From: a virus
Length of the DNA stretch: 26,499 nt
Virus record (IMG/VR): IMGVR_UViG_3300034524_000064
Coordinates: 1 to 26,499 of that record
Direction: 5' to 3' (one strand)
Below, in pieces: positions 5,210-22,994 of the stretch. Both the position numbers and the translations under genes were made by a program. Below the pieces are notes generated by a model. The model searched no databases. It worked only from the letters and a program-made list of their open reading frames with translations, and was not told the origin of the DNA. Position 1 is the first letter of the stretch, and every line of letters begins with the position of its first letter.

Positions 5210-5237
5210 AAATTAGGATGACTATCCTAATTGTAAC
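5210..5237 (-). promoter_or_regulatory. GTTACAA-N13-CCTAA element, copy 1 (upstream of the moron)
   Basis: Read on the minus strand: GTTACAA (5231-5237), a 13-base spacer and CCTAATTT (5210-5217). It lies just upstream of the moron ribosome site and points the same way as the gene. This copy also holds an 8-base inverted repeat, ATTAGGAT/ATCCTAAT. It sits downstream of a sigma-A type promoter, so it could act as an operator as well as a promoter. Confidence 0.7.
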
Positions 5238-5254
5238 ACAATAACCTTAATTTT

Positions 5255-5282
5255 ATTCTATATCTCATCCTGAATTTGTCAA
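5255..5282 (-). promoter_or_regulatory. Sigma-A type promoter reading leftward to the moron
   Basis: On the minus strand, TTGACA (5277-5282) and TAGAAT (5255-5260) are 16 bases apart. Transcription would begin near 5248 and cross element copy 1 before the gene. A perfect -35 box suggests expression by host polymerase, as expected for a gene active in the lysogen. Confidence 0.6.
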
Positions 5283-5308
5283 GGAAATTATTGGTAAGGA
5301 GGATAAAA

Positions 5309-6313
5309 ATGGCTAATACTTATCTATTTCCGTATGAAATTCAAGAAGTAACTCCTCAATCAGGTATACCCTGGAATGTTCAACAGGTAAATGCTCCTTC
5401 ATTTTGGCAGCGTACAAAAGGAGATGGTGCAGTAGTAGCGATAATTGATACAGGATTAGATGTAAATCATCCTGAATTTGCTGGACGTGTTATAAGTTAT
5501 CAGAATTTTACTTCAGATGCTTCATTAGATAGTGACGGCCATGGAACTCATGTTGCAGGTATTATAGCTGGAAAAACTGTCGGTGTGGCTCCAGAATGTC
5601 GTTTAATGGCGTTAAAAGCATTAGGTAATGGTATGGGAGCTTTTAGCATTGAAAATGCTTTTAAATATATTTTAGACTATAATGAAAAAGTTCCAGAACA
5701 AGATCGAGTAGTAGCAGTAAATTGCAGTTGGGGAGGGCCTTATAATCCTATACACCATTATTTAATCAGGCGACTTATACACAGTGGTGTTGCTGTTATA
5801 GTTGCAGCTGGAAATGCAGGTGATGGAAAACCTGAAACTGAAGAAATTTTTAGCTGGCCTGGCTTTTTGTATGAAGTTATAACAACAGGAGCTACTAATA
5901 AAGACGGCCAACCAGCAGGATATTCAAGCAGTTATGATGGAATTGATATAGGAGCTCCTGGTACAGAAATATATAGTGCTTGGCCTGGTGGTGGGTATAA
6001 ATTACTAAGCGGCACTAGTATGGCAACGCCCCATGTTACGGCAGCTTATGCTTTAATAGCTGCCGCTTTTAAACAACGTGAAGGCAGATACCCCACGGTA
6101 GATGAAGGAGAAGAAATTCTGTTTAAGCATATTCGCCAAACAGGAGCAGATCCACGTTTTATCGGAAAAGGTTTACTGGATTTAACATTTGATTTTAAAC
6201 GGTGGCCGTTGTATCGAGTACAAACAGGAGCTTATTATTATAAACAGGGTGCAAAAATTACTTCTCAAAAATTAAAAGATGCTGGCTTTAATACTTACAT
6301 TGTTAAGTATTAG
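5309..6313 (+). CDS. Subtilisin-like serine protease (S8) with C-terminal SPOR-like domain
   Basis: A 334-residue protein from ATG 5309, preceded by AAGGAGG; an upstream in-frame start at 5276 lacks a ribosome site. The catalytic triad is intact: Asp47 (AIIDTGLD), His78 (GHGTHVAG) and Ser237 (SGTSMATPH), with oxyanion Asn near 168 (VIVAAGNAG). No signal peptide or long propeptide is visible, which resembles intracellular subtilisins or virion proteins. The last 33 residues (YRVQTGAYYY, KDAGFNTYIVKY) resemble a SPOR domain, a module known to bind peptidoglycan stripped of stem peptides. The gene lies between the tail and holin/amidase genes, so it may assist cell-wall passage or host lysis, or process virion proteins. 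Fold and catalysis are well supported; the role is inferred. Confidence 0.9.
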   Translation: MANTYLFPYEIQEVTPQSGIPWNVQQVNAPSFWQRTKGDGAVVAIIDTGLDVNHPEFAGRVISYQNFTSDASLDSDGHGTHVAGIIAGKTVGVAPECRLMALKALGNGMGAFSIENAFKYILDYNEKVPEQDRVVAVNCSWGGPYNPIHHYLIRRLIHSGVAVIVAAGNAGDGKPETEEIFSWPGFLYEVITTGATNKDGQPAGYSSSYDGIDIGAPGTEIYSAWPGGGYKLLSGTSMATPHVTAAYALIAAAFKQREGRYPTVDEGEEILFKHIRQTGADPRFIGKGLLDLTFDFKRWPLYRVQTGAYYYKQGAKITSQKLKDAGFNTYIVKY

Positions 6314-6328
6314 AGAGGGGGTATCAAA

Positions 6329-6526
6329 TTGGAAATGGAGCAGATTGTAGAAATGTTAGGTAGGCATGAAGAACGTATCTCAAATTTAGAAAAGTGGCAG
6401 GAAAAACAAAATGGCAGTCTACAACGGTTAGAGACGAAAGTAGATAACATAAATAAGCTACTTTTAACTTTATTGGGAGGAGTATGTACTTCACTTATCT
6501 TGTTAGTGTTGCAAATGGGGAGGTGA
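6329..6526 (+). CDS. XhlA-like / holin-associated membrane protein
   Basis: A 65-residue protein. The start is TTG 6329, placed correctly after GAGAGGGGG; ATG 6335 is farther away. Residues 1-42 form a charged amphipathic coiled coil (EMLGRHEERISNLEKWQEKQ) and residues 43-62 form one transmembrane segment (LLTLLGGVCTSLILLVLQ). This matches the hemolysin XhlA family, membrane-associated partners of holins in Bacillus-type prophage lysis cassettes. The gene is 4 bases ahead of the next membrane protein gene. Confidence 0.75.
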   Translation: MEMEQIVEMLGRHEERISNLEKWQEKQNGSLQRLETKVDNINKLLLTLLGGVCTSLILLVLQMGR

Positions 6527-6530
6527 ATTT

Positions 6531-6797
6531 GTGAAAGACTTTTTTAATCGCTTAGATCAGTTTAGTTTTAAAGATTTATTGGCAATAGCTTTTAGTGGAT
6601 GGTTTTTGTTTTTCAGCTATCGAGCCTTAACAAGTAAAGATGCTTTAGAGTTAGTTAAAACATTAATACCTTTAATCAGCATAATTCTCATTGGCTATTT
6701 TGGTACAGAAGTCACTTCGTCTTATTTTAATAGACGGCAAAATTACAACAATCCGAATATAATTTCTAATCCTTTAGATCCGGATAAACCAATCTAA
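6531..6797 (+). CDS. Small membrane protein of the lysis cassette
   Basis: An 88-residue protein starting at GTG 6531 after GGGGAGG. Two hydrophobic stretches are seen, roughly residues 18-33 (LAIAFSGWFLFFSYRA) and 43-57 (LIPLISIILIGYFG), followed by a polar, Asn/Pro-rich tail. It is probably a membrane protein with two helices. Its place between the XhlA-like gene and the amidase gene suggests a holin, antiholin or accessory role, but the family is not recognised. Another holin-like protein follows the amidase. Confidence 0.6.
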   Translation: MKDFFNRLDQFSFKDLLAIAFSGWFLFFSYRALTSKDALELVKTLIPLISIILIGYFGTEVTSSYFNRRQNYNNPNIISNPLDPDKPI

Positions 6798-6812
6798 CAG
6801 GGGGTGATGCCA

Positions 6813-7544
6813 ATGCCGAGGGTAATAGTAGTAGACCCCGGCCATTAGCAAGGTGGGCGTGATCCAGGTGCTATAGGGCCGGGGGGAATAAAAGAAAAAG
6901 ATATTACGTTAGCAGTTAGTAAAAAATTAGCAAATCATTTATACCAAATAGCTGATGTGCATTTAACCCGTTGGACTGATAAACATTTCGGAATTAACGA
7001 TATTGATGATTTACAAGCAAGATGTAATATAGCTAATCAACTAAGAGCGGATTTGTTTATATCAATACACTGTAATAGTGCAGGCAGTTCTTCTGCTTAT
7101 GGAATAGAAACTTATGCACTTCAGCCAGGCGGTATAGGAGAAAAATTAGCTAAGGTAATACAAAATGAACTAATTGCTGCTACAGGTCTTGTTGATCGAG
7201 GAGTAAAATATGCCAGTTATTATGTTCTTCGTAGAACTTTTATGCCTGCTATTTTAATTGAACTAGGATTTATTAGTAATCCTACTGAAGAACAATATTT
7301 AGCTAATCCTGATTTTCAAGATGTATGCGCTAAAGCAATAGCAACAGGAATAAAGAAACATTTAGGTATATACGAGGAGGAGGCGAACAAAGTGACCGAA
7401 CAATGGAAAGAAGAGATTATGAAGTGGGGGCAGAAAAAAGAGACTCTTAATTTATCGCCGGAACATAAAGCTGATGATCCAGCGCCTAAGTGGTTTGTAG
7501 TAGCAGTTGCACAACGACTAATGGAGGCGTTAAAAAATGCTTAA
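6813..7544 (+). pseudogene. N-acetylmuramoyl-L-alanine amidase (Amidase_3 endolysin) with in-frame TAG at codon 12
   Basis: Translating from ATG 6813 (GGGGGTG upstream; ATG 6807 is an alternative) gives MPRVIVVDPGH, a TAG at 6846-6848, then QGGRDPGAIGPGG in the same frame and an intact remainder to 7544. The zinc amidase signature is otherwise complete: the His before the stop, Glu in GIKEKD, His in SIHCN and Glu in LIELGFISN. Removing the six bases TAGCAA restores the canonical PGHGGRDPGA. The stop falls just after a metal-ligand His, so an internal start such as ATG 6957 would make a dead enzyme. Options are a true nonsense lesion or hexamer insertion, suppressed or read-through amber, or an error. 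TAG serves as a normal terminator for several genes here, so global reassignment is unlikely. CCCCGGCC (6836-6843) and GGCCGGGG (6877-6884) could form a GC-rich stem around the TAG. Confidence 0.8.
7392..7544 (+). CDS. Possible separately translated C-terminal module of the endolysin
   Basis: Inside the amidase frame, a strong ribosome site GAGGAGGAGG (7374-7383) sits 8 bases before GTG 7392. Starting there would yield a 50-residue protein, MTEQWKEEIMKWGQKKE and onward to VAQRLMEALKNA, after the catalytic domain. Some endolysins make an extra C-terminal wall-binding polypeptide from an internal start. The segment resembles short helical wall-binding or SLH-like pieces, but I cannot assign it. 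It could also simply be coding sequence that happens to look like a ribosome site. Confidence 0.4.
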   Translation: MTEQWKEEIMKWGQKKETLNLSPEHKADDPAPKWFVVAVAQRLMEALKNA

Positions 7545-7740: not shown

Positions 7741-7774
7741 ATAGTTATATTTAATTAAGAGTTATAGTATTTAA

Positions 7775-7820
7775 CTGTTCTACTGTTTATCAGTAGAACA
7801 GATTATTTTTTTTTATTTTT
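7775..7820 (+). terminator. Intrinsic terminator of the late (tail/lysis) operon
   Basis: A perfect 11-base stem, CTGTTCTACTG (7775-7785) with CAGTAGAACAG (7791-7801) around TTTAT, followed by a long T-rich tract (nine consecutive T). This is the strongest terminator in the window. Its left arm shares its sequence with a second copy at 7897-7910. Confidence 0.9.
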
Positions 7821-8005
7821 AGATTTTATATTTTAGTTTAGATTAAGTTTAGATGTTATTAAATTTTTGTTTTAGTATTTTAATATTTTGATGTTTACTG
7901 TTCTACTGTTATTTTATTTTACAGTTTAAATACATAAATATAGTTATTAGTTATTGGTTATTATCTGATCTACAGTTCTACAGTATAATGATCTACTATA
8001 AGTAT

Positions 8006-8033
8006 CGCTTAGGATTACCTGCCTGTTTGTAAC
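8006..8033 (-). promoter_or_regulatory. GTTACAA-N13-CCTAA element, copy 2 (leftward, no gene behind it)
   Basis: On the minus strand: GTTACAA (8027-8033), a 13-base spacer and CCTAAGCG (8006-8013). It points away from copy 3, and the two flank the 13-mer array symmetrically. Downstream on its strand TATAGTAGAT resembles the TTAGTAGAAGG that follows other copies, but there is no ribosome site or gene. It could start an antisense or origin transcript or bind a replication or regulatory protein. Confidence 0.6.
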
Positions 8034-8038
8034 ACCTT

Positions 8039-8077
8039 CCTAAAATTTTTTCCCAAAATTTTTCCTGAAAATTTTCT
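8039..8077. repeat. Three tandem 13-bp AT-rich repeats
   Basis: The units are CCTAAAATTTTTT, CCCAAAATTTTTC and CTGAAAATTTTCT, with AAAATTTT palindromes starting at 8042, 8055 and 8068, exactly 13 bases apart. The array ends one base before element copy 3 and begins five bases after copy 2. Confidence 0.85.
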
Positions 8078-8105
8078 GTTACAAAGGCTATCCTTATCCT
8101 AATTT
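8078..8105 (+). promoter_or_regulatory. GTTACAA-N13-CCTAA element, copy 3 (before the helicase loader)
   Basis: GTTACAA (8078-8084), a 13-base spacer and CCTAATTT (8098-8105), then CTTAGTAGAAGG and the AAGGAGGG ribosome site of the helicase loader gene. It is the best match to the consensus and probably governs the replication operon. Confidence 0.7.
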
Positions 8106-8137: not shown

Positions 8138-8773
8138 TTGATTTGTCCTGCCAGTGATCGATGTAAAAAATTAAATTCCCCTGTTTGTAATGAACTTTGT
8201 TATGGTTATTTGACTGTTACCTTTCAGCTAGATTCAGCAAAAATACCAAAGTTATACAGGAAGTTTAGATATTACAACATTGAAATAGGAGAAAGAGCTA
8301 AACAGATTTTGGAAAAGTATTGTTTAAACATAGTTAAGAATGTAGAGAGTGGATACTCTTTATATCTCTACGGCGATAATACAACAGGAAAGACAGCTAC
8401 AGCCTGTGCAATACTTATGGAGTATTTAATTCAAAAAGCACTGACTGTAAAGCAAGAACCTCAAGGTTTATTTGTAGTAGTACCGGAGTTATTAAATCAA
8501 ATAAGAGATTCTTTTAATAGTGATGACTATGAATGGTTACTAACTGATATTAAGAATATTCCTCTACTTGTCATGGATGATATTGGATCTGAACGTTCTA
8601 CTGAATGGGCACAGGAACAGTTATTTGAAATAATTAATTATCGTTATTCTAATAACCTGGCTACTATCTATACTTCAAATGTATCAGTAAAAATGCTTGA
8701 AGATTTATTGGGTAGGAGAATATCTTCAAGATTAAATCAAGCTACTAAAATACCTTTTTACCGGGAGGAATAA
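8138..8773 (+). CDS. Helicase loader, DnaC/IstB-like AAA+ ATPase
   Basis: A 211-residue protein from TTG 8138, 7 bases after AAGGAGGG. It has a Cys cluster at the N terminus (C3, C9, C17, C21) that may bind zinc, Walker A GDNTTGKT (79-86), Walker B LLVMDDIG (about 143-150), a sensor-like TIYTSN and GRRISSRL near the C terminus. This matches DnaC-type loaders, which place the ring helicase on single-stranded DNA using ATP. It is next to its expected partner, the DnaB-like helicase, two bases downstream, so the two are translationally linked. It lies directly after the proposed origin. Confidence 0.88.
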   Translation: MICPASDRCKKLNSPVCNELCYGYLTVTFQLDSAKIPKLYRKFRYYNIEIGERAKQILEKYCLNIVKNVESGYSLYLYGDNTTGKTATACAILMEYLIQKALTVKQEPQGLFVVVPELLNQIRDSFNSDDYEWLLTDIKNIPLLVMDDIGSERSTEWAQEQLFEIINYRYSNNLATIYTSNVSVKMLEDLLGRRISSRLNQATKIPFYREE

Positions 8774-8775
8774 AA

Positions 8776-10056
8776 ATGTTAGAATTACAAGTTTTAAATT
8801 GGGTTATTCAAAATAAAGATTTCTATGTACTCCCTAATAATGGTATTGATGAATCTTTCTTCATAGACTATAAAGACACTTACTGTTTTATTCGAGACTT
8901 TGTAAAAAATGAGGGGTATACCCCTTCTTTAGAGACAGTTATCAGCCAGTCTAAAGATAATTTTAGCTATGTTAATGTTACTGAGAGTATTGATTATCTT
9001 ATTCGAACTTTGAAAAGCCAAGTTGCTAAAGTGGAAGTAGCAGAATTACTGCAGAAAGAAGCTCCTAAATTCTATGATGAAATGCATGGTATTGAATTTA
9101 TTAAGTGGTTGCAGTATAAGCTTGATAAACTTGTAGATCGATATGATATTAATTCTAAAGGTGTAGATTTTAAAACAAATGCAGAATTACGTTTACAGGC
9201 TTATTATCAACGAGCTAATAATACTTCTAGAAAGATTTGGCATACAGATTTGCAGAATCTTAATGATCTAGTTGGAGGTTTTATTTCAGGAACTTATATT
9301 ACTGTTATTGCTGAAACTGGTCAGGGCAAAAGTTGGATAAGTAGAAGGATATTACCGATACCTGCATGGATAAACGGAGCTAATGTTCTAGACTACTGTT
9401 TAGAGATGACTAATGATCAAATTCAACCTCGTTTAGATTGTATGTTAGGTGCAATTTTAAATGAGAAAAACGGTTTGAATACGAGATTTTCGTGTAGAGG
9501 ATTAATGTTTGGTAATTTACCTCCAGATGAGTTATTTGCGTATAAAAATTATCTAGAGCATTTTAATGATTATTTTCCTCGTGCTGGAAAATATGTAATT
9601 AAAACAATGGATGATGTTAAGGAATTAACTCTGGATCGATTAGAAGCTGATATAGAAGAAAATAATGCAGATATAGTTCTTATTGACCCGTTTTATTATA
9701 TGGGATTTTTACGAAACATTGATAATAAAACAGGGGGAGCAGCAGAGAGAACTTCACGGGAACTACGAAAACTGTTTAATCGGATGCAGGTAATTGGAAT
9801 TGTAGTATCTCAGGCTACAGTCCAAAAGAAAGGTAAAGATATTGAAGTACAAGCACCAACATTAGATCAAACTAAAACTACTAAAGCTTTAATTGAAGAT
9901 GCTGGTCTTGTATTTTCTTTTGCTGCTAAACGGAATTATAATCTTGGAAAATTGAGTGTGCTAAAGAATCGTGACGGAAATTCAGGTGATATTGAGCTTG
10001 TAGTTGATTTTGATTATGGCATTATTCGGGAACATAATGGAGAAGAATTATTTTGA
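8776..10056 (+). CDS. Replicative DNA helicase, DnaB-like
   Basis: A 426-residue protein from ATG 8776 with GGGAGG just upstream. The N-terminal 130 residues are helical and resemble a primase-interacting domain. The RecA-like motor follows: Walker A AETGQGKS (179-186), a hydrophobic strand ending in Asp304 (DIVLIDPFYYMG), and a later segment SQATVQKKGKD. Phage DnaB-type helicases unwind the fork from 5' to 3' as hexamers. It is a little shorter than cellular DnaB (about 450-470 residues). It lies between loader and primase genes, so the three form a fork module. Confidence 0.88.
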   Translation: MLELQVLNWVIQNKDFYVLPNNGIDESFFIDYKDTYCFIRDFVKNEGYTPSLETVISQSKDNFSYVNVTESIDYLIRTLKSQVAKVEVAELLQKEAPKFYDEMHGIEFIKWLQYKLDKLVDRYDINSKGVDFKTNAELRLQAYYQRANNTSRKIWHTDLQNLNDLVGGFISGTYITVIAETGQGKSWISRRILPIPAWINGANVLDYCLEMTNDQIQPRLDCMLGAILNEKNGLNTRFSCRGLMFGNLPPDELFAYKNYLEHFNDYFPRAGKYVIKTMDDVKELTLDRLEADIEENNADIVLIDPFYYMGFLRNIDNKTGGAAERTSRELRKLFNRMQVIGIVVSQATVQKKGKDIEVQAPTLDQTKTTKALIEDAGLVFSFAAKRNYNLGKLSVLKNRDGNSGDIELVVDFDYGIIREHNGEELF

Positions 10057-10062
10057 AAACGC

Positions 10063-10091
10063 TTGACTACCAAAAATATGTTCGCTACAAT
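10063..10091 (+). promoter_or_regulatory. Sigma-A type promoter before primase
   Basis: TTGACT (10063-10068) and TACAAT (10086-10091) are 17 bases apart, in the 53-base gap between helicase and primase genes. Transcription would start near 10098, about 12 bases before the primase ATG, leaving only a weak ribosome site (AGGGTAAG). Confidence 0.65.
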
Positions 10092-10109
10092 AAGGGTGTA
10101 GGGTAAGAT

Positions 10110-11021
10110 ATGGTAACAAAAGAATATCTTGAATATGAGCTGGGTTTGAAAAAAGTAAAAGAGCTGTCTAGTGGCTGGATAATGGCCTGTTGTCCTTTTC
10201 ATAAAGAAGCAAGGCCGTCATTCGGAGTAAATAAAGAAACAGGAGTATACAATTGTTTTGCATGTGGAGCTTCGGGAAATTTGGCAGACCTAATATCTTT
10301 TTGTAAAGGTATTAGCATAGCGGATGCAGTAAAAGAGATTACAAAATCTGCAAAAACACTTTTCAAACATTCTTCTCTTGTTATAAACTTAGATAAGAGA
10401 AAGGAGGATATAATACTTCCCAAAACGATACTTAAAGAATATGCATACTATCATCCATATTTGATTAAACGTGGTATCAGTAAAGAAACTCTTAAAAAAT
10501 TTGCTGTAGGCTATGATATAACGAATAAAGCAGTTACGTTTCCCTTCTTTGACTTGCAGGGAAATTTGCGGACGATTAAATATCGAAAAGTTGACAGTAA
10601 ACAGTTTTGGTATTATCCTAATGGAGAAGATAAATCAAAACTGCTGTATTTAATACACGCAGTAAAAGGCTTAGAAAGAGTTTATATTGTCGAAGGCGAA
10701 ATAGACGCGCTTTATTGTTGGGAAAATGGTCTGCCAGCGATAGCTTTAAGCGGTAGCTGGATGACTAAAGAACAGGCAAAGCTGTTACTTAGTACAGGAG
10801 TTAAAGAAGTCGTTATATTTACAGATAATGATAGTGCAGGGGAAAAAGCTAAAAACAGGATAATATCACTTTTAAGCAGGAGAAGAGTCCAGAAGTTTGT
10901 AGAATATAACTTAGCAGTAAAAGACCCAAACGAAATGCCTAAAAACGTAATTAGGAATTTGACTTTGAAACCTGTTCCTTTGTTTCCTTACACAACTCAA
11001 TTAAAGCATCAAGGTATTTGA
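10110..11021 (+). CDS. DNA primase (CHC2 zinc finger and TOPRIM)
   Basis: A 303-residue DnaG-type primase. Residues 26-55 hold the zinc finger, ACCPFHKEARPSF with YNCFACGASGN (CxxH...CxxC). The middle part contains LIKRGISKETLKKFAVGYD, typical of phage primases. TOPRIM motifs follow: VYIVEGEIDALY (about 194-205) and the acidic DND pair (VVIFTDNDSAGE, about 235-246). It makes RNA primers for the DnaB helicase and polymerase encoded nearby. It is short because it lacks the DnaB-interacting C-terminal domain of cellular DnaG. Its last 70 bases overlap the 3' end of the oppositely oriented repressor gene. Confidence 0.9.
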   Translation: MVTKEYLEYELGLKKVKELSSGWIMACCPFHKEARPSFGVNKETGVYNCFACGASGNLADLISFCKGISIADAVKEITKSAKTLFKHSSLVINLDKRKEDIILPKTILKEYAYYHPYLIKRGISKETLKKFAVGYDITNKAVTFPFFDLQGNLRTIKYRKVDSKQFWYYPNGEDKSKLLYLIHAVKGLERVYIVEGEIDALYCWENGLPAIALSGSWMTKEQAKLLLSTGVKEVVIFTDNDSAGEKAKNRIISLLSRRRVQKFVEYNLAVKDPNEMPKNVIRNLTLKPVPLFPYTTQLKHQGI

Positions 11022-11322
11022 TTAAGGTTTCTTCTGGAATTAGTTGCAGCAGAGACTTAATTCGAGCAATTAGACGTAGGCTCAAATCTGTTTCAACAGT
11101 TTGAATTTCTTCTTCACCTAAAAGGGAAGAAATAGAACAACCTAATGCAGAAGCTATATTCATTAGAAATGGTATTGAAGGGTATGTTAAACCTCTTTCG
11201 ATTGCTGAAATAGAATTAGGAGTAACCTTAATAAGCCTTGCTAAATCAGCTTGGCTAAGGTTTTTAGAAGTTCTAATTCTACGTAGAATGTTGCCGAGTT
11301 CCTTTTGAGTAAGTTTTTTCAT
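10951..11322 (-). CDS. Xre-family transcriptional repressor (CI-like)
   Basis: A 123-residue protein read leftward. Residues 5-62 form the helix-turn-helix domain (LGNILRRIRTSKNLSQADL, then LIKVTPNSISAIERG, then PSIPFLMNIASALGCSI), the standard Cro/CI fold. The C-terminal half is helical and Leu-rich (SLLQLIPEETLIKYLDALIEL), probably for oligomerisation; there is no LexA-type protease domain. It faces the rightward promoter at 11342-11369 and the antirepressor gene, so it is likely the lysogeny repressor. The palindrome at 11511-11529 is a candidate operator. Its ribosome site (GAGGG) is rather far from the ATG. Its 3' end overlaps primase. Confidence 0.85.
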   Translation of the reverse strand: MKKLTQKELGNILRRIRTSKNLSQADLARLIKVTPNSISAIERGLTYPSIPFLMNIASALGCSISSLLGEEEIQTVETDLSLRLIARIKSLLQLIPEETLIKYLDALIELCKETKEQVSKSNS

Positions 11323-11341
11323 AAAAACAGTGTTTACCCTC

Positions 11342-11369
11342 TTGACTGAATTGGCTTGTGTGATATAAT
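11342..11369 (+). promoter_or_regulatory. Rightward sigma-A promoter toward antirepressor
   Basis: TTGACT (11342-11347) and a perfect TATAAT (11364-11369) are 16 bases apart. It reads away from the repressor gene, like the early rightward promoter of a lysis/lysogeny switch, and would give a leader of about 280 bases before the antirepressor. Confidence 0.75.
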
Positions 11370-11379
11370 AAAGGCAAAA

Positions 11380-11464
11380 GGCAACGGTATCCCCACTACC
11401 GCTGCCAGTTTAAGGATGTGGTTTGTGCAATACGCCGCCCTCCTGTTTAATGGCGTAGTATTGC
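11380..11464 (+). promoter_or_regulatory. Two leader hairpins in the repressor-antirepressor intergenic region
   Basis: The gap 11323-11655 holds no convincing gene. Its transcript can fold at 11380-11406 (GGCA-a-CGGTA, loop TCCCCAC, TACCG-c-TGCC) and at 11427-11464 (GCAATACGCC with GGCGTA-GTA-TTGC, a three-base bulge). Neither is followed by a U tract, so they are not plain terminators. They may be a regulatory leader. An ORF reading through them (11356-11619) lacks a ribosome site. Confidence 0.45.
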
Positions 11465-11510
11465 GTGGTATTTTATTGTCACTTCTAATTATATCTATTC
11501 TATTTATCTT

Positions 11511-11529
11511 TGTCAACAGGTTGTTGACA
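11511..11529. promoter_or_regulatory. Palindromic candidate operator
   Basis: A perfect 8-base inverted repeat, TGTCAACA-GGT-TGTTGACA, 19 bases in all. The right arm contains TTGACA, so it could also overlap a second promoter, though no good -10 box follows. A symmetrical site between a repressor gene and its target fits an Xre operator. Confidence 0.55.
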
Positions 11530-11655
11530 TTTCTATGGAAAAATTTTCTTTGGAAAGGGGATTTTCTTTATGTAGGATTAAAATTACCCCACCATCGCTT
11601 AATTAGGAGAAGCTACTAATAAGAGTTCTAATCTAAGAAGAGGAGGATATTTCAA

Positions 11656-12528
11656 ATGAATAGCTTGGCAGTTAAAGAATATCGAGAAGTAGATTTCTAT
11701 GGAGATCAGATTTTAGGTGTAAAAGTGGAAGAAAATGGACAGGAAACAGTATATGTTCCAGTAAAACGTTTGTGTGAGAATTTGGGATTAGCACGGTATC
11801 CTCAGCAAGAAAAGATTCAGCAAGAAAGGGTTTTATCGGAGGGTAGCATTAAAATTATGCTACCCATAATAGGAAAAGACGGAGTAACTCAAACGCAGGA
11901 GATGTTTTGTCTTCGTTATGACTTTATTCCAATGTGGCTCATTACAATTAAGGAAAACAAAATTAAACCTGAACTTCGAGAAAAACTTTATCTTTACAAA
12001 AAAGAAGTAGCTCGTGTTTTAGCAGAAGTATTTCTTGGTAAAGGATATGCTTTCCATTCTAATCCGCAAGCTGTTGATACGGAAAAATTGCGGCGTGAAA
12101 TTATAGAACTAGAAATTAAGCGAGATAGTATTCGTTCTGATGCACTAAAGACGAGAGTTATTTATAAATTCGTTGATAAGTGGTTTGAAAGGCTTCCCGA
12201 TAGTGAACGTAGTGCCTTGATAATGATAATGGCTGGTAAAGATGTTGCTGTTGAAAGAACTTTTACTGTAACAGAAGCAGCAAAGTTGTTTGCTAAAGAA
12301 TTTGGTTATGATTTTTCACCTATTATTTTAGGTAAACTTATTACTCAAGCTGGTATAAGGCCAGAAGGGGAGGAGAAAGAAAATAAGTATTGTTTGATCA
12401 GTATTACTAAAGCCAGAGGTAGCAATCGTACAGTCAATATCACAAAGATTAAGCCAGAGGGTATCAATTATTTGAGGGAGTATATTCGAGAAAACTTTTT
12501 TTCTAATCAACCTGTAAAGGTTGGCTAA
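11656..12528 (+). CDS. Phage antirepressor (P22_AR_N type)
   Basis: A 290-residue protein from ATG 11656 after GAGGAGG. The N-terminal 120 residues (VDFYGDQILGVKVEENG, VPVKRLCENLGLARYPQ, FCLRYDFIPMWLITI, KLYLYKKEVARVLAE) match the P22-type antirepressor domain. The C-terminal part contains VTEAAKLFAKEFGYDFSP and LGKLITQAGIRPEG, a winged-helix-like antirepressor C-terminal region. Antirepressors bind and inactivate CI-like repressors to favour lytic growth. It is transcribed away from the Xre gene across a palindromic operator, so it probably belongs to the same switch. AGGTTG near the stop can pair with CAACCT, forming a weak hairpin. Confidence 0.85.
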   Translation: MNSLAVKEYREVDFYGDQILGVKVEENGQETVYVPVKRLCENLGLARYPQQEKIQQERVLSEGSIKIMLPIIGKDGVTQTQEMFCLRYDFIPMWLITIKENKIKPELREKLYLYKKEVARVLAEVFLGKGYAFHSNPQAVDTEKLRREIIELEIKRDSIRSDALKTRVIYKFVDKWFERLPDSERSALIMIMAGKDVAVERTFTVTEAAKLFAKEFGYDFSPIILGKLITQAGIRPEGEEKENKYCLISITKARGSNRTVNITKIKPEGINYLREYIRENFFSNQPVKVG

Positions 12529-12552: not shown

Positions 12553-12628
12553 TAGCTTAACATGGGCGAGGAGATGCCGTACGTCACATACTATTTCCTA
12601 TGAAGATGCCATAAAATTTGCCAGGAAA

Positions 12629-13045
12629 GTGGCAGACGGATATGGAAGTAGATATGCAGACGATCTTTACAGTATTTTTCTAGAAACAACTTTGGATGCA
12701 TTATCAAAATATGATGGGAGTACTAAAATACATTCCTATCTTAAAAGATGCTATATGTATGCCGCCAGAGATTTCTTTAGGAAGGAAAAGAAGCCGGTAG
12801 TTTGTTTGGATGAAGTTCTAGAAAATGAAGATGGGGAGGTGGGATATGATAGTATAGAAGAAGGAGTATATATTAGAATGGCTCTCGAAAAATTACCAGA
12901 GGAACAGAAAAAAATATGCTATCTTCTAGGGCAGGGTTTCAGCTATCGGCAAATAGCTGAAATGTTAGGTACCTACCCTATGAAGATAGCCAGACACGTA
13001 AAACAAATTAGAGATCACCTCTCAAAAGAATTATATGCTGCTTAG
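12629..13045 (+). CDS. Phage sigma-70-like factor; true start uncertain, perhaps near 12581
   Basis: From GTG 12629 the product has 138 residues. KYDGSTKIHSYLKRCYMYA and RDFFRKEKK resemble sigma region 2, and LPEEQKKICYLLGQGFSYRQ with IAEMLGTYPMKIARHVKQI forms a region 4 helix-turn-helix. It is shorter than a housekeeping sigma and lacks regions 1 and 3, so it is ECF-like in layout. GTG 12629 has a poor ribosome site (AGGA only 2 bases away). Coding-like sequence continues upstream (ISYEDAIKFARKVADG) to about 12581, where ACG lies 7 bases after GAGGAG, so a rare start or an indel is possible. It may direct polymerase to the GTTACAA-N13-CCTAA elements, one of which follows 34 bases after its stop. 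Confidence 0.72.
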   Translation: MADGYGSRYADDLYSIFLETTLDALSKYDGSTKIHSYLKRCYMYAARDFFRKEKKPVVCLDEVLENEDGEVGYDSIEEGVYIRMALEKLPEEQKKICYLLGQGFSYRQIAEMLGTYPMKIARHVKQIRDHLSKELYAA

Positions 13046-13070: not shown

Positions 13071-13106
13071 GGATGGGTGTTACAAGTGTAATGCCCATCC
13101 TAATCT
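13071..13106 (+). promoter_or_regulatory. GTTACAA-N13-CCTAA element, copy 4 (before the SSB-like gene)
   Basis: GTTACAA (13079-13085), a 13-base spacer and CCTAATCT (13099-13106), followed by ATTAGTAGAAAGG and an AAGGAGG ribosome site. In this copy the element is embedded in a hairpin: GGATGGG (13071-13077) pairs with CCCATCC (13094-13100), with TTACA/TGTAA pairing inside. Confidence 0.7.
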
Positions 13107-13144: not shown

Positions 13145-13771
13145 ATGGTGACTAATGTCTTTGTAGCCAGTGGTAAGCAAGTTAAAGAAAATATTAATAA
13201 GCCAGAAATATCATCAAATGTTTTTATTCGACTAGATGATGGTCAGCATGTCCGAATTGTTTTCTTTCCGAACGAGGAAGATCTTTTTCAGCAGTATTAC
13301 AGTCATTCTGATTTTAAAAAGAAGATATTCTCTCATCCATGCTTAATCAATGACTGTCCTTCATGTGCCGCAGGCATTAAACGGACTACTAAAATTCTTG
13401 TACCAGTTTATGACTTGGATGCTGATGAAATCCGCATAATTGATGCTTCGGCTAGGCAGTTATCTAATATTTGCCAGATATTAGATGAATATGCTGATGA
13501 ACCTGGGTTGGCTTTTAAGTACAGTCGTACAGGTAAACAATTGGATACTGTTTACTCATTAACTCCTATTTTTCCATCTAAATTGAGTAAAGAAGATAGG
13601 GCTAAAATTGCTAAAGTACCTGAATTGAGGAAGCAAGTTACAGAAGAATTTTTACTCCAAGCTTTGAGACCAAAGACAAAAGAACAGATATTGGAAATGC
13701 TTAACAAAGGTCAGACTCAAACTGAAGATGAAAATATAGAGCCTATGGGAGATGAAGATCTGCCGTTCTAA
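13145..13771 (+). CDS. Single-stranded DNA-binding protein-like
   Basis: A 208-residue protein from ATG 13145 after AAGGAGG. It contains FIRLDDGQHVRIVFFP, a short zinc-type cluster (HPCLINDCPSCAAG) and KILVPVYDLDADEIRI. This resembles phage gp32/SSB-like proteins, in which a zinc-bearing loop sits beside the DNA-binding fold. The C terminus is acidic and ends GDEDLPF, the tip by which SSBs recruit polymerase, primase and nucleases. The gene is directly upstream of the DNA polymerase gene, which supports a replication role. The fold is not certain from sequence alone. Confidence 0.7.
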   Translation: MVTNVFVASGKQVKENINKPEISSNVFIRLDDGQHVRIVFFPNEEDLFQQYYSHSDFKKKIFSHPCLINDCPSCAAGIKRTTKILVPVYDLDADEIRIIDASARQLSNICQILDEYADEPGLAFKYSRTGKQLDTVYSLTPIFPSKLSKEDRAKIAKVPELRKQVTEEFLLQALRPKTKEQILEMLNKGQTQTEDENIEPMGDEDLPF

Positions 13772-13787
13772 GAACGGGGGCTGTAAA

Positions 13788-15830
13788 ATGTGGGCTGAAA
13801 TATTTCAATACAAATGGGCGCAGGAAAGGAGAGAACAATTAGAGAGAGTTAAAAAAGCATTAGAAGCTGGTATCCTTGTTAGGGAGAATGAAAAGAAGAA
13901 ACTTACTCAAAAAGAGTTTTTGGATTTAGCAAGGCAATTAAATGAAAAGGAAAGACAAGAAAAAATAGAGTACTTACTTAGGAATAAGCCAGACAACTAC
14001 TTTTTGGTAAATACGGAACGTCTTTTGAAAAGACTATGTGAGTTATGCTTGCAGGAAGAAGAAATTTCTTTAGATATAGAAACATCTCCTCAACCTGGTG
14101 GAGCCAAGGAAGATGCCTTAGATCCGTGGAAGGGGGTGATTGTTGGCATCTCCCTTGGCCTGCCAAAAGCTAACAAATATTTCTATATTCCTGTAGGTCA
14201 CTCTAGTGGCTTGCAGTTATCATTAAAAACAGTTGTAGATGCCTTAAAAGATATTAACCGTTGTTTAATAATGCATAATTCACCTTTTGATACTAAATTC
14301 TTGTACCTTAATGGTTTGGATGTAATAGATTTAATTTCTTATGACAGTTTGTTAGCTGCAAAAGTTCTTAATGAAAATGATGATCATGGGTTGAAAAGCT
14401 TATGTTCTCGTTATTTAAAGATGGAAACAACTGATTACGAAGATTTATTTGGCCCGATACCTTTTAGGGAAATTCCAATTGATGTTGCCCTTGTGTATGC
14501 GGCTAAAGATGCTGAAATGACTATTAGATTAGCTGAATTTCAACGTGAGCATTTAGCATTACGGCCAAAATTAGCTAGATTATTTTATGAAATAGAAATG
14601 CCTGTTATGTGTGAGATGATAAAGGCAGATTTAACTGGCAGTGCTTTTGATGTTGAGGAATGTGCTAAGTTAGATAAAGAGTTAGGTCAAGAGCAAAGTA
14701 AAATTGAAGCAGAGATTAAAGTAATGATAGGTGATGTAAACATTAATTCTCCAGCTCAATTATCAAGAGTTTTGTATGATGAGTTAAAGCTTATTGATAT
14801 TAGTGGAAAAAGATCAACGGGTGTAAAAGTGCTAAAGAAATTAAGTAACAAACATGATGTTATACCTAAAATTCTAGAGTATAGGGCTATAGCAAAGTTG
14901 CGTCAGGCATTTACTCAGAAGTTACCTAATGAACTTAAAAAAGATGGCAGAATACATCCTTGGCATAACACTTATGGAGCACATACTGGCAGGTTTAGTT
15001 GTAATAATCCTAATACGCAACAATTGCCAGCAAAGGATGAAAGATCACGTAGAGTAAGGCAGTTATTTGTTGCTGATTCTGGAAGGATATTTATTTCAAT
15101 TGATTACAGTCAAATTGAGCTTAGATTGTTAGCTCATTTCAGTCAAGATGAGAATATGATGAGGGCTTATCGAGAAGGAATTGATATTCATGCGATAACA
15201 GCAAGTAAGGTGTTTGGTCTGCCGATAGAAAAGATTTTAGATGATGAGCAAAATGGGGGTAGTAAGGAACGAAAAAAAGCTAAAAACGTAAACTTTGGTA
15301 TCAGCTACTTAATTACAGCTAAAGGATTGGCTGATCAGATAGGATGTAGTGATGAGGAAGCTCAAAAAATTATCGAAGATTACTTTAGGAATTTTCCGAA
15401 GGTAAAACAGTTCATAGAAAACACAATTGAAACTACTAGAAGGAGGGGGTATGCAGAGACAATTTTAGGCCGTAAACGGCGTCTGCATAAGACTATTAGG
15501 AGTAGCGATTATTCTGAAAGAGCTTCTGCTGAACGCCAGGCAGTTAATTTTGTGATTCAAGGGAGTGCTGCTGATTTACTGAAAAAGGCTATAGTAGACT
15601 TACAACCTGTACTGAAAAAGTATGATACTTATATACGTTTTCAGGTGCATGATGAATTGATTTTTGATGCTCCTGAAAATATTACTAGAGAAGCTTTAGA
15701 AGAAATAATGGAAACAATGAGGAACGCAATTAAAATTGATGTTCCCATTGAAGTTGATGCTGAAATTTATCCTCATAGGTGGGCTGAAGGTGTAAAGATT
15801 GATGAATGGTTTGATAATAGAAGTAGTTAA
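13788..15830 (+). CDS. polA: DNA polymerase I family (family A) with 3'-5' exonuclease
   Basis: A 680-residue protein; ATG 13788 follows ACGGGGG and overlaps nothing functional, whereas an upstream in-frame start at 13752 lies inside the SSB-like gene. It lacks the 5'-3' exonuclease domain of bacterial Pol I. Proofreading motifs are present: DIET (from residue 96), NSPFD (near 164) and YAAKDAE. Polymerase motifs are present as well: motif A DYSQIELR (from 439), the O-helix RKKAKNVNFGISY (near 495) and motif C QVHDELI (near 620). All catalytic Asp/Glu residues seem intact. It is the phage replicative polymerase, encoded with loader, helicase, primase and SSB. Confidence 0.95.
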   Translation: MWAEIFQYKWAQERREQLERVKKALEAGILVRENEKKKLTQKEFLDLARQLNEKERQEKIEYLLRNKPDNYFLVNTERLLKRLCELCLQEEEISLDIETSPQPGGAKEDALDPWKGVIVGISLGLPKANKYFYIPVGHSSGLQLSLKTVVDALKDINRCLIMHNSPFDTKFLYLNGLDVIDLISYDSLLAAKVLNENDDHGLKSLCSRYLKMETTDYEDLFGPIPFREIPIDVALVYAAKDAEMTIRLAEFQREHLALRPKLARLFYEIEMPVMCEMIKADLTGSAFDVEECAKLDKELGQEQSKIEAEIKVMIGDVNINSPAQLSRVLYDELKLIDISGKRSTGVKVLKKLSNKHDVIPKILEYRAIAKLRQAFTQKLPNELKKDGRIHPWHNTYGAHTGRFSCNNPNTQQLPAKDERSRRVRQLFVADSGRIFISIDYSQIELRLLAHFSQDENMMRAYREGIDIHAITASKVFGLPIEKILDDEQNGGSKERKKAKNVNFGISYLITAKGLADQIGCSDEEAQKIIEDYFRNFPKVKQFIENTIETTRRRGYAETILGRKRRLHKTIRSSDYSERASAERQAVNFVIQGSAADLLKKAIVDLQPVLKKYDTYIRFQVHDELIFDAPENITREALEEIMETMRNAIKIDVPIEVDAEIYPHRWAEGVKIDEWFDNRSS

Positions 15831-16948: not shown

Positions 16949-17563
16949 ATGATTGAATATAGATATTCATACAAAGATCCTGTGGTAGTACAGAAAATAG
17001 CTCAAACTATTTGTGATTTAAGGCAGGAATTAGATCGAGATCAAACACGTCAACTTGTAATAGTCTGTATAGGTACTGATCGTTCTACTGGAGATAGTCT
17101 GGGGCCATTGGTAGGTACTTTTATAAGAGAAAAATTAATAGATAAACTAACTGTTTATGGAACTTTAGATGAACCTGTTCATGCTTTGAATTTAAGAGAG
17201 TGTTTAAATAATATTAAACAAATTAAAAATCCATTAATAATTGCTGTTGATGCATCATTAGGTAGAGAAAAAAGTGTAGGTGATATTATTATTGGGAAGG
17301 GAAGTCTTATACCAGGTATTGGTGTAAATAAAGAGTTACCTAAAATTGGGGATATATTCATTAAGGGAATAGTTAATATTGATGCAAGTCATTTTAGTAA
17401 TAGTTTTACACATTTGATACTGCAAAATACTCGTTTAGGATTGGTATGGAAAATGGCTAATGTAATTGCTAGAGGAATTGAGAAAGCTATAACACAAGAT
17501 AGAATAAATGATATGTATTCTAGTTCATATTGTGAGTATGCTGTGGTAAGCTGTGTTAGCTAA
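16949..17563 (+). CDS. YyaC-like sporulation protein (GPR-like protease fold)
   Basis: A 204-residue protein from ATG 16949 with GGGTGAG upstream. Recognised by IVCIGTDRSTGDSLGPLVG, YGTLDEPVHALNL, PLIIAVDASLGREKSVGDI, PGIGVNKELPKIGDI and FTHLILQNTRLGLVWKMA. These match the YyaC family, of full length here (about 200 residues), which is related to the germination protease GPR and is confined to endospore formers. The Asp-rich motifs IGTDR and VDAS are intact. It is odd for a phage to carry this between replication genes and a structured RNA region. It may act on sporulation or germination to help phage entrapment or exit from spores. The family is clear; the function in phage is inferred. Confidence 0.85.
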   Translation: MIEYRYSYKDPVVVQKIAQTICDLRQELDRDQTRQLVIVCIGTDRSTGDSLGPLVGTFIREKLIDKLTVYGTLDEPVHALNLRECLNNIKQIKNPLIIAVDASLGREKSVGDIIIGKGSLIPGIGVNKELPKIGDIFIKGIVNIDASHFSNSFTHLILQNTRLGLVWKMANVIARGIEKAITQDRINDMYSSSYCEYAVVSCVS

Positions 17564-17800
17564 CTCCGAGGTGGGTCGAAGTGCATTGGCTGGAGTTGTT
17601 CCGGTGGACTTCGGCGCAAGGGTAAGAATTAAATTGCCGTGGAGCTTTAGGCTCGCGTCAATCAATTGATAAAGGGTAGCCAAGTAGGGGAGAGAAATCG
17701 GCGCCACCGAAAGGCGTGTAGGGGTTGGCTACTGCTTGTATAAGCCCCGAGGTGGGAGCGCAAAGCCCACCATGCAAGGTGCAAATCCTTGCTCCTGTCG
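17564..17800 (+). ncRNA. Candidate structured noncoding RNA
   Basis: A GC-rich stretch in an AT-rich region with no supported ORF. Helices seen: GTCGAAGT (17575-17582) with ACTTCGGC (17608-17615); AACTCC (17562-17567) with GGAGTT (17592-17597), which would make a pseudoknot with the first; GAGC/GCTC (17642-17645/17651-17654); an 8-base helix GTAGCCAA (17676-17683) with TTGGCTAC (17725-17732) enclosing CGCC/GGCG (17702-17705/17713-17716); GCTT/AAGC (17734-17737/17742-17745); GGTGGG/CCCACC (17751-17756/17766-17771); and GCAAGG/CCTTGC (17774-17779/17787-17792) around TGCAAAT, which resembles a tRNA T arm. The decamer CCGAGGTGGG occurs at both ends. I do not recognise a known family. It could be a phage RNA, a ribozyme or a leader of the next gene. 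Confidence 0.6.
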
Positions 17801-17829
17801 AACTATATATTAAAATAGGGGTGATACCA

Positions 17830-18033
17830 TTGCGAATAGGTACTAAACGTTTTTCAATTTGGATTAAGTTATATAAAGGTAAAACTAATTGGCATACAGG
17901 GAATTATACACTTATTCTTGCTAAAGGAAAGTATTTTGAGAATGAAGGCTATGACGGTTGGGGCTGGACGAATTTGAGGTTTATTCCAATAGGAAAAAGA
18001 ATTAAACACGATTGGAGGCGTGAGTTAAAGTAA
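17830..18033 (+). CDS. Small basic hypothetical protein
   Basis: A 67-residue product from TTG 17830, 5 bases after AGGGGTGAT. An upstream in-frame TTG at 17725 lies inside the structured RNA region and is unlikely to be the start. The protein is rich in Lys, Trp and Tyr (FSIWIKLYKGKTNWHTGNYT, GYDGWGWTNLRFIPI) and basic at the end (KRIKHDWRRELK). The function is not recognised. Its stop overlaps the beginning of the next coding region. Confidence 0.55.
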   Translation: MRIGTKRFSIWIKLYKGKTNWHTGNYTLILAKGKYFENEGYDGWGWTNLRFIPIGKRIKHDWRRELK

Positions 18034-20526: not shown

Positions 20527-20540
20527 GAGGTTGATCACTA

Positions 20541-20837: not shown

Positions 20838-20841
20838 GTTA

Positions 20842-20869
20842 GTTACAAACACCTTTTTCAACCTAATTT
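20842..20869 (+). promoter_or_regulatory. GTTACAA-N13-CCTAA element, copy 5
   Basis: GTTACAA (20842-20848), a 13-base spacer and CCTAATTT (20862-20869), then ATAAGTAGAAGGAGGG. It starts 4 bases after the resolvase-like stop and would drive the run of small genes from 20895. Confidence 0.7.
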
Positions 20870-20894
20870 ATAAGTAGAAGGAGGGATAAAAGCG

Positions 20895-20975
20895 GTGGGT
20901 AAATTGCTAGGAGCAACAGCATTGATTGCGTGGGTAATGGTTTGGTGGGTAATTGGGATAAAATTATTCACATAA
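20895..20975 (+). CDS. 26-residue single-helix membrane peptide
   Basis: GTG 20895 is preceded by AAGGAGGG and the ORF ends at TAA 20975. The product (KLLGATALIAWVMVWWVIGI, then a short polar end) is almost entirely one hydrophobic helix. It is the first gene after element copy 5. Tiny membrane peptides of this kind are common in phage early regions; their roles are unknown. The strong ribosome site supports translation. Confidence 0.55.
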   Translation: MGKLLGATALIAWVMVWWVIGIKLFT

Positions 20976-20989
20976 GGAGGATTAAACAG

Positions 20990-21289: not shown

Positions 21290-21293
21290 AGAG

Positions 21294-21671
21294 ATGACAG
21301 AAGAATTGCTATTAAAATTGCAAGAATATGGGTATAACGAGATACCTTCTTTTGATTATATGTTATCAAGACTAGATCAATATGGGTATTACCCCGATAT
21401 TTTAGCTTTTCGACCAGATCGTTATGAATGTGTATTAAACCGAATGAATTACTTTGTAAATGAACTTGAACCGCTTTTATCGAAAAAATTTATAGGAAAT
21501 AGCCGTAAAGAAGCAGTTGCTAAAGCCTTTTTATGGGCAATGGAAGAGAACAGTAAATCATGGCAAAGAGTTTTAGAGTTAGGAGCTAAACTTGGCGATA
21601 GATTAAAAGAAGCAGGCATAACTGAAGAACAGATAAAAGAAGATGTCAGAAGGATTAGGAAAAAAAATTAG
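21294..21671 (+). CDS. Hypothetical helical protein
   Basis: A 125-residue product from ATG 21294 with GAGG upstream; a longer frame back to 21132 overlaps the zinc-ribbon gene and is rejected. It contains LQEYGYNEIPSFDYMLSRL, KEAVAKAFLWAMEENSKSW and a charged C terminus (EDVRRIRKKN). No catalytic or binding motif is recognised. It is probably co-transcribed with its neighbours. Confidence 0.55.
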   Translation: MTEELLLKLQEYGYNEIPSFDYMLSRLDQYGYYPDILAFRPDRYECVLNRMNYFVNELEPLLSKKFIGNSRKEAVAKAFLWAMEENSKSWQRVLELGAKLGDRLKEAGITEEQIKEDVRRIRKKN

Positions 21672-21686
21672 AGAGGAAAAAAGGCC

Positions 21687-21758
21687 ATGAAAGATTTTAT
21701 AGGATGTTTAAAACTATTGTTAAGTAACCTTAATAATACGAGAGGGCAAAATAAATAA
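21687..21758 (+). CDS. 23-residue small ORF
   Basis: ATG 21687 has GAGAGGAAAAAAGG upstream and the frame ends at TAA 21758. The peptide is MKDFIGCLKLLLSNLN followed by NTRGQNK. Its position in an otherwise unused gap with a ribosome site makes translation plausible, but it is too short to assess by coding signal alone. Confidence 0.35.
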   Translation: MKDFIGCLKLLLSNLNNTRGQNK

Positions 21759-21785
21759 ATAAGATATTATAAATAAGGTGATTTT

Positions 21786-22034
21786 ATGCTTCGTAAACCA
21801 CACAATAGGGCTTACTTGAGAGTACAACGTCAAAGAATTATTTCAAAACGTAAACGTATTATAGAGCAAGTTTGGGGCAGTAAGGATAATGAGTTACTTA
21901 AAAAGCCAGGGAAGTTAGCCAAATATAATTTGGCCTGTAGTTGTTGGATGTGTAAAGAGGCTAGAAAAAATGGGCCTGATAAGATTATAGAAAAGATAAT
22001 ACAAAAGGAGGCAAATGATTATGAGGGAAATTAG
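21786..22034 (+). CDS. Small basic conserved phage protein with Cys pair
   Basis: An 82-residue protein from ATG 21786 (AAGGTG upstream). It is very basic at the N terminus (NRAYLRVQRQRIISKRKRII) and contains KPGKLAKYNLACSCWMCKEA. The pattern 'basic helix, GKLxKxNxxCSCxMC' recurs in short bacterial and phage proteins of unknown function. CSCWMC could bind zinc. Its end overlaps the start of the YopX-like gene. Confidence 0.6.
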   Translation: MLRKPHNRAYLRVQRQRIISKRKRIIEQVWGSKDNELLKKPGKLAKYNLACSCWMCKEARKNGPDKIIEKIIQKEANDYEGN

Positions 22035-22437
22035 GTTTAGAGGGCAACGTAAAGATGATAATCAATGGGAATACGGATTTTTAACAGTTACTCCAAAAGA
22101 CGGATATGTAATAGTCAATGGTGATGGTATGGGTTTATTATTTATAAATCCAATTAAGCCAGAAACTATTGGTCAGTTTACTGGATTAAAAGATAAAAAT
22201 GGTGTAGAAGTTTATGAGGGCGATATAGCTATAAACTTTTTGGGCGTAAAGGGAGTAATTAGGTTTGGCAGTTTTCAGGATCTTGAATGTTATAATGATG
22301 GTATTTGTCCTAATGGATGGTGGGGATGGTATCTAGAATATCCAGATGGGAGATGTAGTGGATTGGATGATAAAACCAAGGAATGGCTAGAAGTAGTTGG
22401 AAATATATGGGATAATCCAGAATTATTAGATGCATAG
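22021..22437 (+). CDS. YopX family protein
   Basis: A 138-residue protein. I chose ATG 22021 (MREIRFRG), the usual family opening; ATG 22015 is closer to the AAAGGAGG site and would add two residues. Hallmarks are REIRFRGQRKDDNQWEYGFL, IGQFTGLKDKNGVEVYEGDI and a C-terminal EVVGNIWDNPELL. YopX proteins are common in phages of Bacilli and Clostridia; their structure is known but their function is not settled. Confidence 0.9.
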   Translation: MREIRFRGQRKDDNQWEYGFLTVTPKDGYVIVNGDGMGLLFINPIKPETIGQFTGLKDKNGVEVYEGDIAINFLGVKGVIRFGSFQDLECYNDGICPNGWWGWYLEYPDGRCSGLDDKTKEWLEVVGNIWDNPELLDA

Positions 22438-22472
22438 CATGTTTAAAATGTGAAACAAGGGGGCGTAAAGCC

Positions 22473-22949
22473 GTGTCAAAGCAAAGTGGACTACTAGAAC
22501 GACTTAAGAAAATTATCATTATTTCGGCTGAAATAGGCGAAGTCGGGTGTCCAAGCGAGCATGGACTTGTAGAACCGAAATGGCCAGGGAAAGTTTGTAT
22601 CGCTGATGATTGTTTTAAATGCTGGGAACTAGCTCTCAAAGAGGAAGAGGATTTTATGTATCCAAGACCATTAACAGAACAAGAAAAGACGTGGCTGATT
22701 AAAGGATTACAAGATGAATTTAAAGATGATCCTAGTTTTAATATTGATTTTTATATGAAACAGTTAGATGGATTAAAGGTTTATTATAAATGCGATTGTG
22801 GTGACCCTAATTGTTATACTATTGGGTTTATACCTCCTAGTGAGAAACATCTTGATTATTGTTTTGTAGATCAGGCAACAGATGATGGTAGAAGTCTATT
22901 AATCCATGAAACTGAAGATCGTCGTATATCAATGTTAGAAATCATATAG
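22473..22949 (+). CDS. Hypothetical protein with N-terminal Cys motif
   Basis: A 158-residue product from GTG 22473 after AAGGGGGCG. The N-terminal third has VGCPSEHGLVEPKW and CIADDCFKCWELALKE, a likely zinc site of the form CP...C...CxxCW. A shorter protein at 23063-23275 repeats this motif, so the two are related. The C-terminal half has YYKCDCGDPNCYTIGF and an acidic stretch. The function is unknown. Confidence 0.6.
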   Translation: MSKQSGLLERLKKIIIISAEIGEVGCPSEHGLVEPKWPGKVCIADDCFKCWELALKEEEDFMYPRPLTEQEKTWLIKGLQDEFKDDPSFNIDFYMKQLDGLKVYYKCDCGDPNCYTIGFIPPSEKHLDYCFVDQATDDGRSLLIHETEDRRISMLEII

Positions 22950-22966
22950 TAGGAACATTGATAGGC

Positions 22967-22994
22967 GTTACAAACACGACTGTCATCCTAACTT
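22967..22994 (+). promoter_or_regulatory. GTTACAA-N13-CCTAA element, copy 6
   Basis: GTTACAA (22967-22973), a 13-base spacer and CCTAACTT (22987-22994), then CTTAATAGAAGGAGAG. It lies in the gap after the Cys-motif gene and points at the next cluster of small genes. Confidence 0.7.

Follow-up and report, generated by a model that had tools for sequence, protein, structure and literature searches.

The 26,499 bases of IMG/VR virus record IMGVR_UViG_3300034524_000064 (positions 1 to 26,499, analysed in full and called the window below) carry six copies of a bipartite element, GTTACAA-N13-CCTAA, and the question raised by this locus is what reads them. The element is likely to be the promoter that unites the middle genes of the phage in one regulon, served by the host RNA polymerase together with a phage-encoded sigma factor of the extracytoplasmic function (ECF) type. 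Six exact matches are present against 0.01 expected, at the places given in the first-pass annotation, which had described six copies with a fixed 13-base gap, and a count of six was never reached in 100 shuffles of the window. GTTACAA occurs nine times in total; CCTAA follows at a gap of 13 in six cases, at a gap of 26 in one, and at no other gap below 40 nucleotides (nt). An unbiased listing of 7mer-gap-5mer pairs returned GTTACAA/CCTAA as the sole pair with six copies outside AT low-complexity sequence, the maximum pair count being 3 or 4 in 38 out of 40 first-order Markov resamples of the window. When 5mer-gap-5mer pairs were counted in non-coding DNA only, sub-words of the element ranked first.

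Two interpretations had been offered for the element, a phage-specific promoter or a regulator site. The former is supported by the orientation of the copies, their distance from start codons, their intergenic placement, the lack of a sigma-A-like promoter just ahead of four of the five gene-bearing copies, conservation in sister phages, and the presence of a phage sigma factor that could read them. Every base of all six copies (numbered 1–6 from left to right; Table 1) is non-coding, as the first-pass annotation had it, in a window of which only 8.3% is non-coding by our own gene list; the chance of this outcome is 0.083^6, or approximately 3e-7. The intergenic-versus-coding scan that the annotation had proposed placed none of the copies inside a gene of the window. 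For five of the six, a start codon lies 24–41 nt downstream on the same strand. General dyad symmetry was not found in the element.

Alignment of the six copies extends the common pattern to GTTACAA-N11-A-N-CCTAA-N4-T-N3-TA, in which every copy has T29, T33, and A34 (position 0 being the first base of GTTACAA) and an extra G follows in the five copies that have a downstream gene. AT does precede CCTAA in five of the six copies, as first described; TTAGTAGAAGG, said to be the usual downstream sequence, is exact in one copy and occurs in near versions in four, and is therefore only approximate. The sites given earlier for the minus-strand copies were right, but their core spans 25 bp, not 28. 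A weight matrix built on the alignment scores the six sites at 36–53 bits, against 5.7 for the next-best site in the window; the best score in a 14-kb stretch of the sister contig G002 with capsid and tail genes is 6.8, and shuffled sequences reach up to 10.5. Because of this gap, the six sites stand sharply apart as a closed set rather than as the top of a continuum, and the next-best site is noise. Copy 2 is the weakest member (leave-one-out score 8.1), since it agrees with the others mainly in the two core boxes and in T29, T33, and A34.

Three contigs in IMG/VR are close sisters of the phage: G001, which covers copy 4; G002, which covers copies 1–4; and G003, which covers copies 4–6. Every covered copy is letter-perfect, N13 included, so that the comparison with relatives called for by the first-pass annotation found the element intact in all three sister phages. 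Copy 4 shows 0 differences in 35 positions from G002, while its flanks show 2 in 33 and 3 in 31 and the adjacent sigma gene shows 40 in 465 (~9%). This identity amid diverged DNA is informative; around the remaining copies the sisters are too alike for constraint to be judged. A scan of 2.9 million viral contigs in IMG/VR with a 17-base consensus found the motif at seven places in the sisters and once in L135, the latter a chance match inside an open frame of 2192 codons. A 16-base version of the motif matched 51 stretches, most of which belonged to one unrelated repeat or held a single match, and was set aside. DNA comparison of the window with cultured phages gave no match.

The layout of promoters points to a sigma cascade, because the integrase, the lysogeny switch with the sigma gene, and the moron have sigma-A-like promoters, while the elements head replication operons. 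Among intergenic sigma-A-like promoters, the best are found ahead of the integrase (145), at 11342 rightward, at 11516 leftward, and ahead of the moron (5282, minus strand). The promoter scan found none just ahead of copies 3–6. The element itself does not follow the sigma-A form TTGACA-N16..18-TATAAT and is not a sigma-A promoter, as stated earlier; of the gene-bearing copies, only copy 1 has a good sigma-A-like promoter just upstream. The operons headed by the element are those for helicase/primase and for SSB (single-strand DNA-binding protein)/DNA polymerase, together with two further early-region operons; the right-hand one, behind copy 6, runs on in G003 to ThyX and anaerobic ribonucleotide reductase. 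The weight-matrix scan found the element absent from ~12 kb of structural genes. Within the lysogeny switch, the two strong sigma-A-like promoters at 11342 and 11516 face each other (window 11342-11530), a terminator-like hairpin lies on the leftward strand at 11406-11380, and the palindrome TGTCAACAGGTTGTTGACA at 11511-11529 is a possible repressor operator.

A candidate reader, overlooked in the first-pass annotation, is encoded between an antirepressor-like gene (P22_AR_N) and copy 4. By sequence profiles and fold, the product of 12581-13045 is a small ECF-type sigma factor. It matches the NCBIfam model TIGR02937 (sigma70-ECF) at 59.6 bits against a curated cut-off of 42.9 and Pfam Sigma70_r4_2 at 32.4 against 25.7; Sigma70_r2, at 21.9, falls slightly under its cut-off of 24. 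Its PHROG match is ‘RNA polymerase sigma factor’, and it has the layout of ECF (group IV) sigmas, with regions 2 and 4 in ~154 amino acids (aa) and no region 3. The best solved-structure matches of a single-sequence AlphaFold2 model (predicted local distance difference test score, pLDDT, 73) are all ECF sigmas, namely the RpoE/NepR complex, SigH, sigma-E, and SigW (probability ~1.0, E from 1e-3), aligned over ~150 columns. Region 4 of the model superposes to within 1.5 Å on that of E. coli sigma-E in complex with its −35 DNA. Overall template-modelling (TM) scores are low (~0.35), presumably because the relative placing of the two domains is not fixed. No element stands upstream of the sigma gene itself, the nearest copy being downstream; autoregulation from an own promoter is a common habit of ECF sigmas, not a strict requirement. 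No anti-sigma gene was recognised near it, although no search aimed at one was made.

Read as a promoter, the element would have GTTACA as its −35 box, a 16-nt spacer ending in the conserved CC, TAA(T)TT as its −10 box, and a start near the conserved TAG, ~9–11 nt past CCTAA. This −10 box was chosen because ECF-like spacing results. The combination of a −35 box and a short −10 box at near-constant spacing resembles ECF promoters, and the protein resembles sigma-E, SigW, and SigH in its small size, its possession of regions 2 and 4 only, and its profile and fold matches; it differs in being carried by a phage and in lacking an element before its own gene. GTTACA-N16-TAATTT also differs from the known AAC-type −35 boxes of ECF promoters. 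The TcdR/BotR/UviA proteins, which like this one are small sigmas of clostridial type, provide a second comparison, as their −35 box resembles the TTACA found here and their −10 box differs from that of the element. These related group 5 sigmas have an SRQ motif in region 4.2 and a −35 box TTTACA (PMC4031146). Membership in that group was rejected: region 4 here reads FSYRQIAEMLGTYPMKIARHVKQIRDHL, without SRQ, and the profile libraries gave no similarity to TcdR, BotR, or UviA. The acetogen Pcauto promoter motif was compared as well and is unrelated to the element.

After induction or infection, host sigma-A would transcribe rightward from 11342 through the antirepressor-like and sigma genes, and the phage sigma would then bring the polymerase to the six GTTACAA elements. 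These would turn on the helicase loader, helicase, and primase, the SSB and DNA polymerase, and the operons near 20895 and 23022; copy 1 would add to expression of the leftward moron, copy 2 would start a leftward non-coding transcript from 8033, and the late genes would use something other than the element. To our knowledge, well-defined promoters are available chiefly for the sigmas of large lytic phages, and the majority of other phage sigma genes lack an assigned target sequence. SPO1 is one such large lytic phage, and its middle promoter, AGGAGA-N17-TTTNTTT, differs from the element. Regulation of its middle and late genes falls to gp28 and gp34 (PMC9429907). The proposed likeness is to gp28, a phage sigma that redirects the host polymerase to phage-only promoters of middle genes; the difference is that the present genome is small and temperate, with integrase and repressor, and its sigma is of ECF type. 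Shared sites and a sigma gene are present here; the recognition and temporal order of an SPO1-type cascade are inferred. If this is correct, the locus would be a clear case of a temperate phage timing its replication with an ECF-type sigma, and would supply a compact, possibly orthogonal sigma/promoter pair. With a small sigma and six defined candidate targets in one compact genome, the pairing is directly testable.

Several observations weigh against such a cascade. No ATG, GTG, or TTG stands at the ribosome site of the sigma gene. Instead, ACG (12581) is in frame 7 nt past GAGGAG and, read as a start, gives MSHTISYEDAIKF, and a short frame (ATG 12574 - TGA 12601) overlaps the start of the gene; the whole start region (window 12562-12640; L022 9647; L007 ~3465) is conserved in G001 and G002. 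Translation probably begins at this non-AUG codon, judging from the sequence, and a frameshift out of the short frame into sigma is less likely. In G003 the sigma gene has a 53-bp frame-breaking deletion (L023 ~351-352, corresponding to window 12619-12671), yet the three elements covered there are intact; the deletion could reflect a defective phage, an assembly fault, or another factor that reads the element. The −10 assignment is uncertain, and CCTAAT as −10 would leave only 13 nt after TTACAA. Copy 2 has no downstream gene, with ~270 bp of gene-free DNA ahead of it. It speaks for the pairing that the element is found in each of the four known records that have the sigma gene, but these are close relatives. 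Phages that are more distant but have a related polymerase share the order of helicase, primase, and SSB and lack both the motif and any detectable relative of the sigma, and no independent covariation therefore ties this sigma to this motif. Among these phages, seven records searched held no exact element copies and five searched held no equally strong repeated dyad. A tblastn search of cultured phages found no sigma relative at E 0.01, genome contigs gave a single 28%-identical host ECF, and 399 genomes of the same phylum gave distant ECFs only; the eight distant-ECF loci examined lack the helicase, primase, and SSB of this phage. In L028 and L032 the gene between primase and SSB looked sigma-like by eye and was discarded, since it had no sigma Pfam hit and did not resemble this sigma. 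At that place (L028 4655-5872), distant relatives whose replication genes are similarly ordered have a gene for an AimR-type (arbitrium) receptor (PF22871).

Other readers of the element have to be weighed against the phage sigma. It seems unlikely that the six sites are activator-dependent promoters at which a phage DNA-binding protein on GTTACAA, near −35, recruits the sigma-A polymerase. Such promoters have precedents in MotA at T4 middle genes and in the RinA/ArpU-type regulators of Gram-positive phages; the fixed spacing and promoter-like position would fit them equally, and many small window genes of unknown function could code the protein. However, a consistent TATAAT-like −10 box is missing downstream of the element, and a sigma factor is present whereas a typical activator was not recognised. 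We give little credence to a promoter class read by an alternative sigma of the host. The host probably is an anaerobic spore former (see below), such hosts carry several sigma factors, and G003 keeps its elements although the phage sigma is broken. On the other hand, a shared host promoter might be expected to turn up in other viral contigs, where the search did not find the extended motif, and we know of no match between the element and the consensus of sigma-B, D, E, F, G, H, K, or 54.

The regulator-site interpretation, if taken to mean a repressor operator, is disfavoured by the absence of a copy from the lysogeny switch (11001-11700), where the best match has 3 mismatches, and by the lack of general dyad symmetry. 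The same observations make it very unlikely that the element is a binding site for a repressor or for a replication or partition protein and not a promoter at all, as do the spread of the copies over 18 kb, the start codons that five of them face at close range, and the conservation of T29 and TA33-34 downstream of the boxes. What speaks for a binding site is local: the divergent copies 2 and 3 flank a 44-bp AT-rich stretch beside the repeat-bearing gene-free region and the replication operon, and copy 1 follows closely on a sigma-A-like promoter, a possible operator position.

Table 1. Element copies, sigma gene, proposed targets, and sigma-A-like promoters of the window (window positions; matrix scores in bits)
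Feature	Position	Strand	Evidence and context
Copy 1	5213..5237	-	Exact match; matrix 48.4; identical in G002; upstream of leftward moron
Copy 2	8009..8033	-	Exact match; matrix 36.2; identical in G002; faces gene-free AT-rich DNA
Copy 3	8078..8102	+	Exact match; matrix 50.2; identical in G002; ahead of helicase-loader/helicase/primase operon, divergent from copy 2
Copy 4	13079..13103	+	Exact match; matrix 45.9; identical in G001, G002, G003; just after sigma gene, ahead of SSB/DNA polymerase
Copy 5	20842..20866	+	Exact match; matrix 47.3; identical in G003; ahead of short open frame at 20895 and following genes
Copy 6	22967..22991	+	Exact match; matrix 52.8; identical in G003; ahead of short open frame at ~23022 and right-hand operon
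ECF-type sigma factor, regions 2 and 4, 154 aa	12581..13045	+	Profiles, PHROG, fold; candidate reader
Helicase loader, DnaB-like helicase, primase	8138..11021	+	Pfam/PHROGs; proposed targets of copy 3
SSB and family A DNA polymerase	13145..15830	+	PHROGs; tblastn matches with annotated DNA polymerases of phages; proposed targets of copy 4
Leftward moron, copper amine oxidase N-terminal domain	4664..5188	-	Pfam PF07833; proposed target of copy 1
TTGACT-16-TATAAT	11342..11369	+	11/12 consensus positions; proposed early promoter of antirepressor and sigma genes
TTGACA-17-TATAAT	11488..11516	-	12/12 consensus positions; toward XRE repressor gene
TTGACA-16-TAGAAT	5255..5282	-	11/12 consensus positions; tandem with copy 1, just upstream
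AT-rich gene-free stretch	7741..8008	.	Possible replication origin; copy 2 points into it

The stretch into which copy 2 points has a G+C content as low as 16% and contains four of the six WTCTACWGTW repeats of the window (0.6 expected for the whole window), as well as a hairpin that looks like the terminator of the rightward lysis operon. Positions 7741-7998 differ from G002 at 1 of 258 positions, compared with ~2% in neighbouring genes, an argument weakened by patchy recombination, as other stretches are identical too. It is reasonable to suppose that an origin here may be activated or primed by a middle-type transcript from copy 2. T4 middle promoters, which use MotA/AsiA with a sigma-70 −10 box, are unlike the element; the likeness to T4 middle-promoter origins lies in a middle-type promoter facing gene-poor AT-rich DNA beside replication genes. 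A fuller picture is tentative and on balance unlikely: a temperate siphovirus with a minimal ECF-type sigma and a non-AUG start would use private promoters to co-ordinate mainly its replication and nucleotide genes, and the leftward member at 8033 would fire into an AT-rich, repeat-bearing, gene-free origin, activating or priming it. If so, one sigma would switch on both the replication proteins and the origin, as a sigma-based counterpart of the T4 middle-promoter origins.

Other features of the phage concern its lysis genes, a non-coding stretch, and its host. In the amidase (endolysin) frame at 6811-7544, an in-frame TAG directly follows the DPGH of the catalytic motif, and the same TAG is found in G002 (L022 ~4805), whose amidase reads MPRVIVVDPGH*QGGRDPGAIG; TAG is the ordinary stop in 9 out of 32 genes. 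Stop-codon readthrough, suppression, and a nonsense mutation are possible explanations. A G+C-rich non-coding stretch of ~260 nt (17563-17830) has by eye the look of a structured RNA; its folding is no better than that of shuffles (z −0.74), and Rfam returned nothing at gathering thresholds, there or elsewhere. Just before it, at 16949-17563, lies a gene of the YyaC (spore protease-like) family (TIGR02841), and G003 also carries the ThyX and anaerobic ribonucleotide reductase genes. On account of the YyaC and anaerobic ribonucleotide reductase genes, the host is probably an anaerobic spore former.

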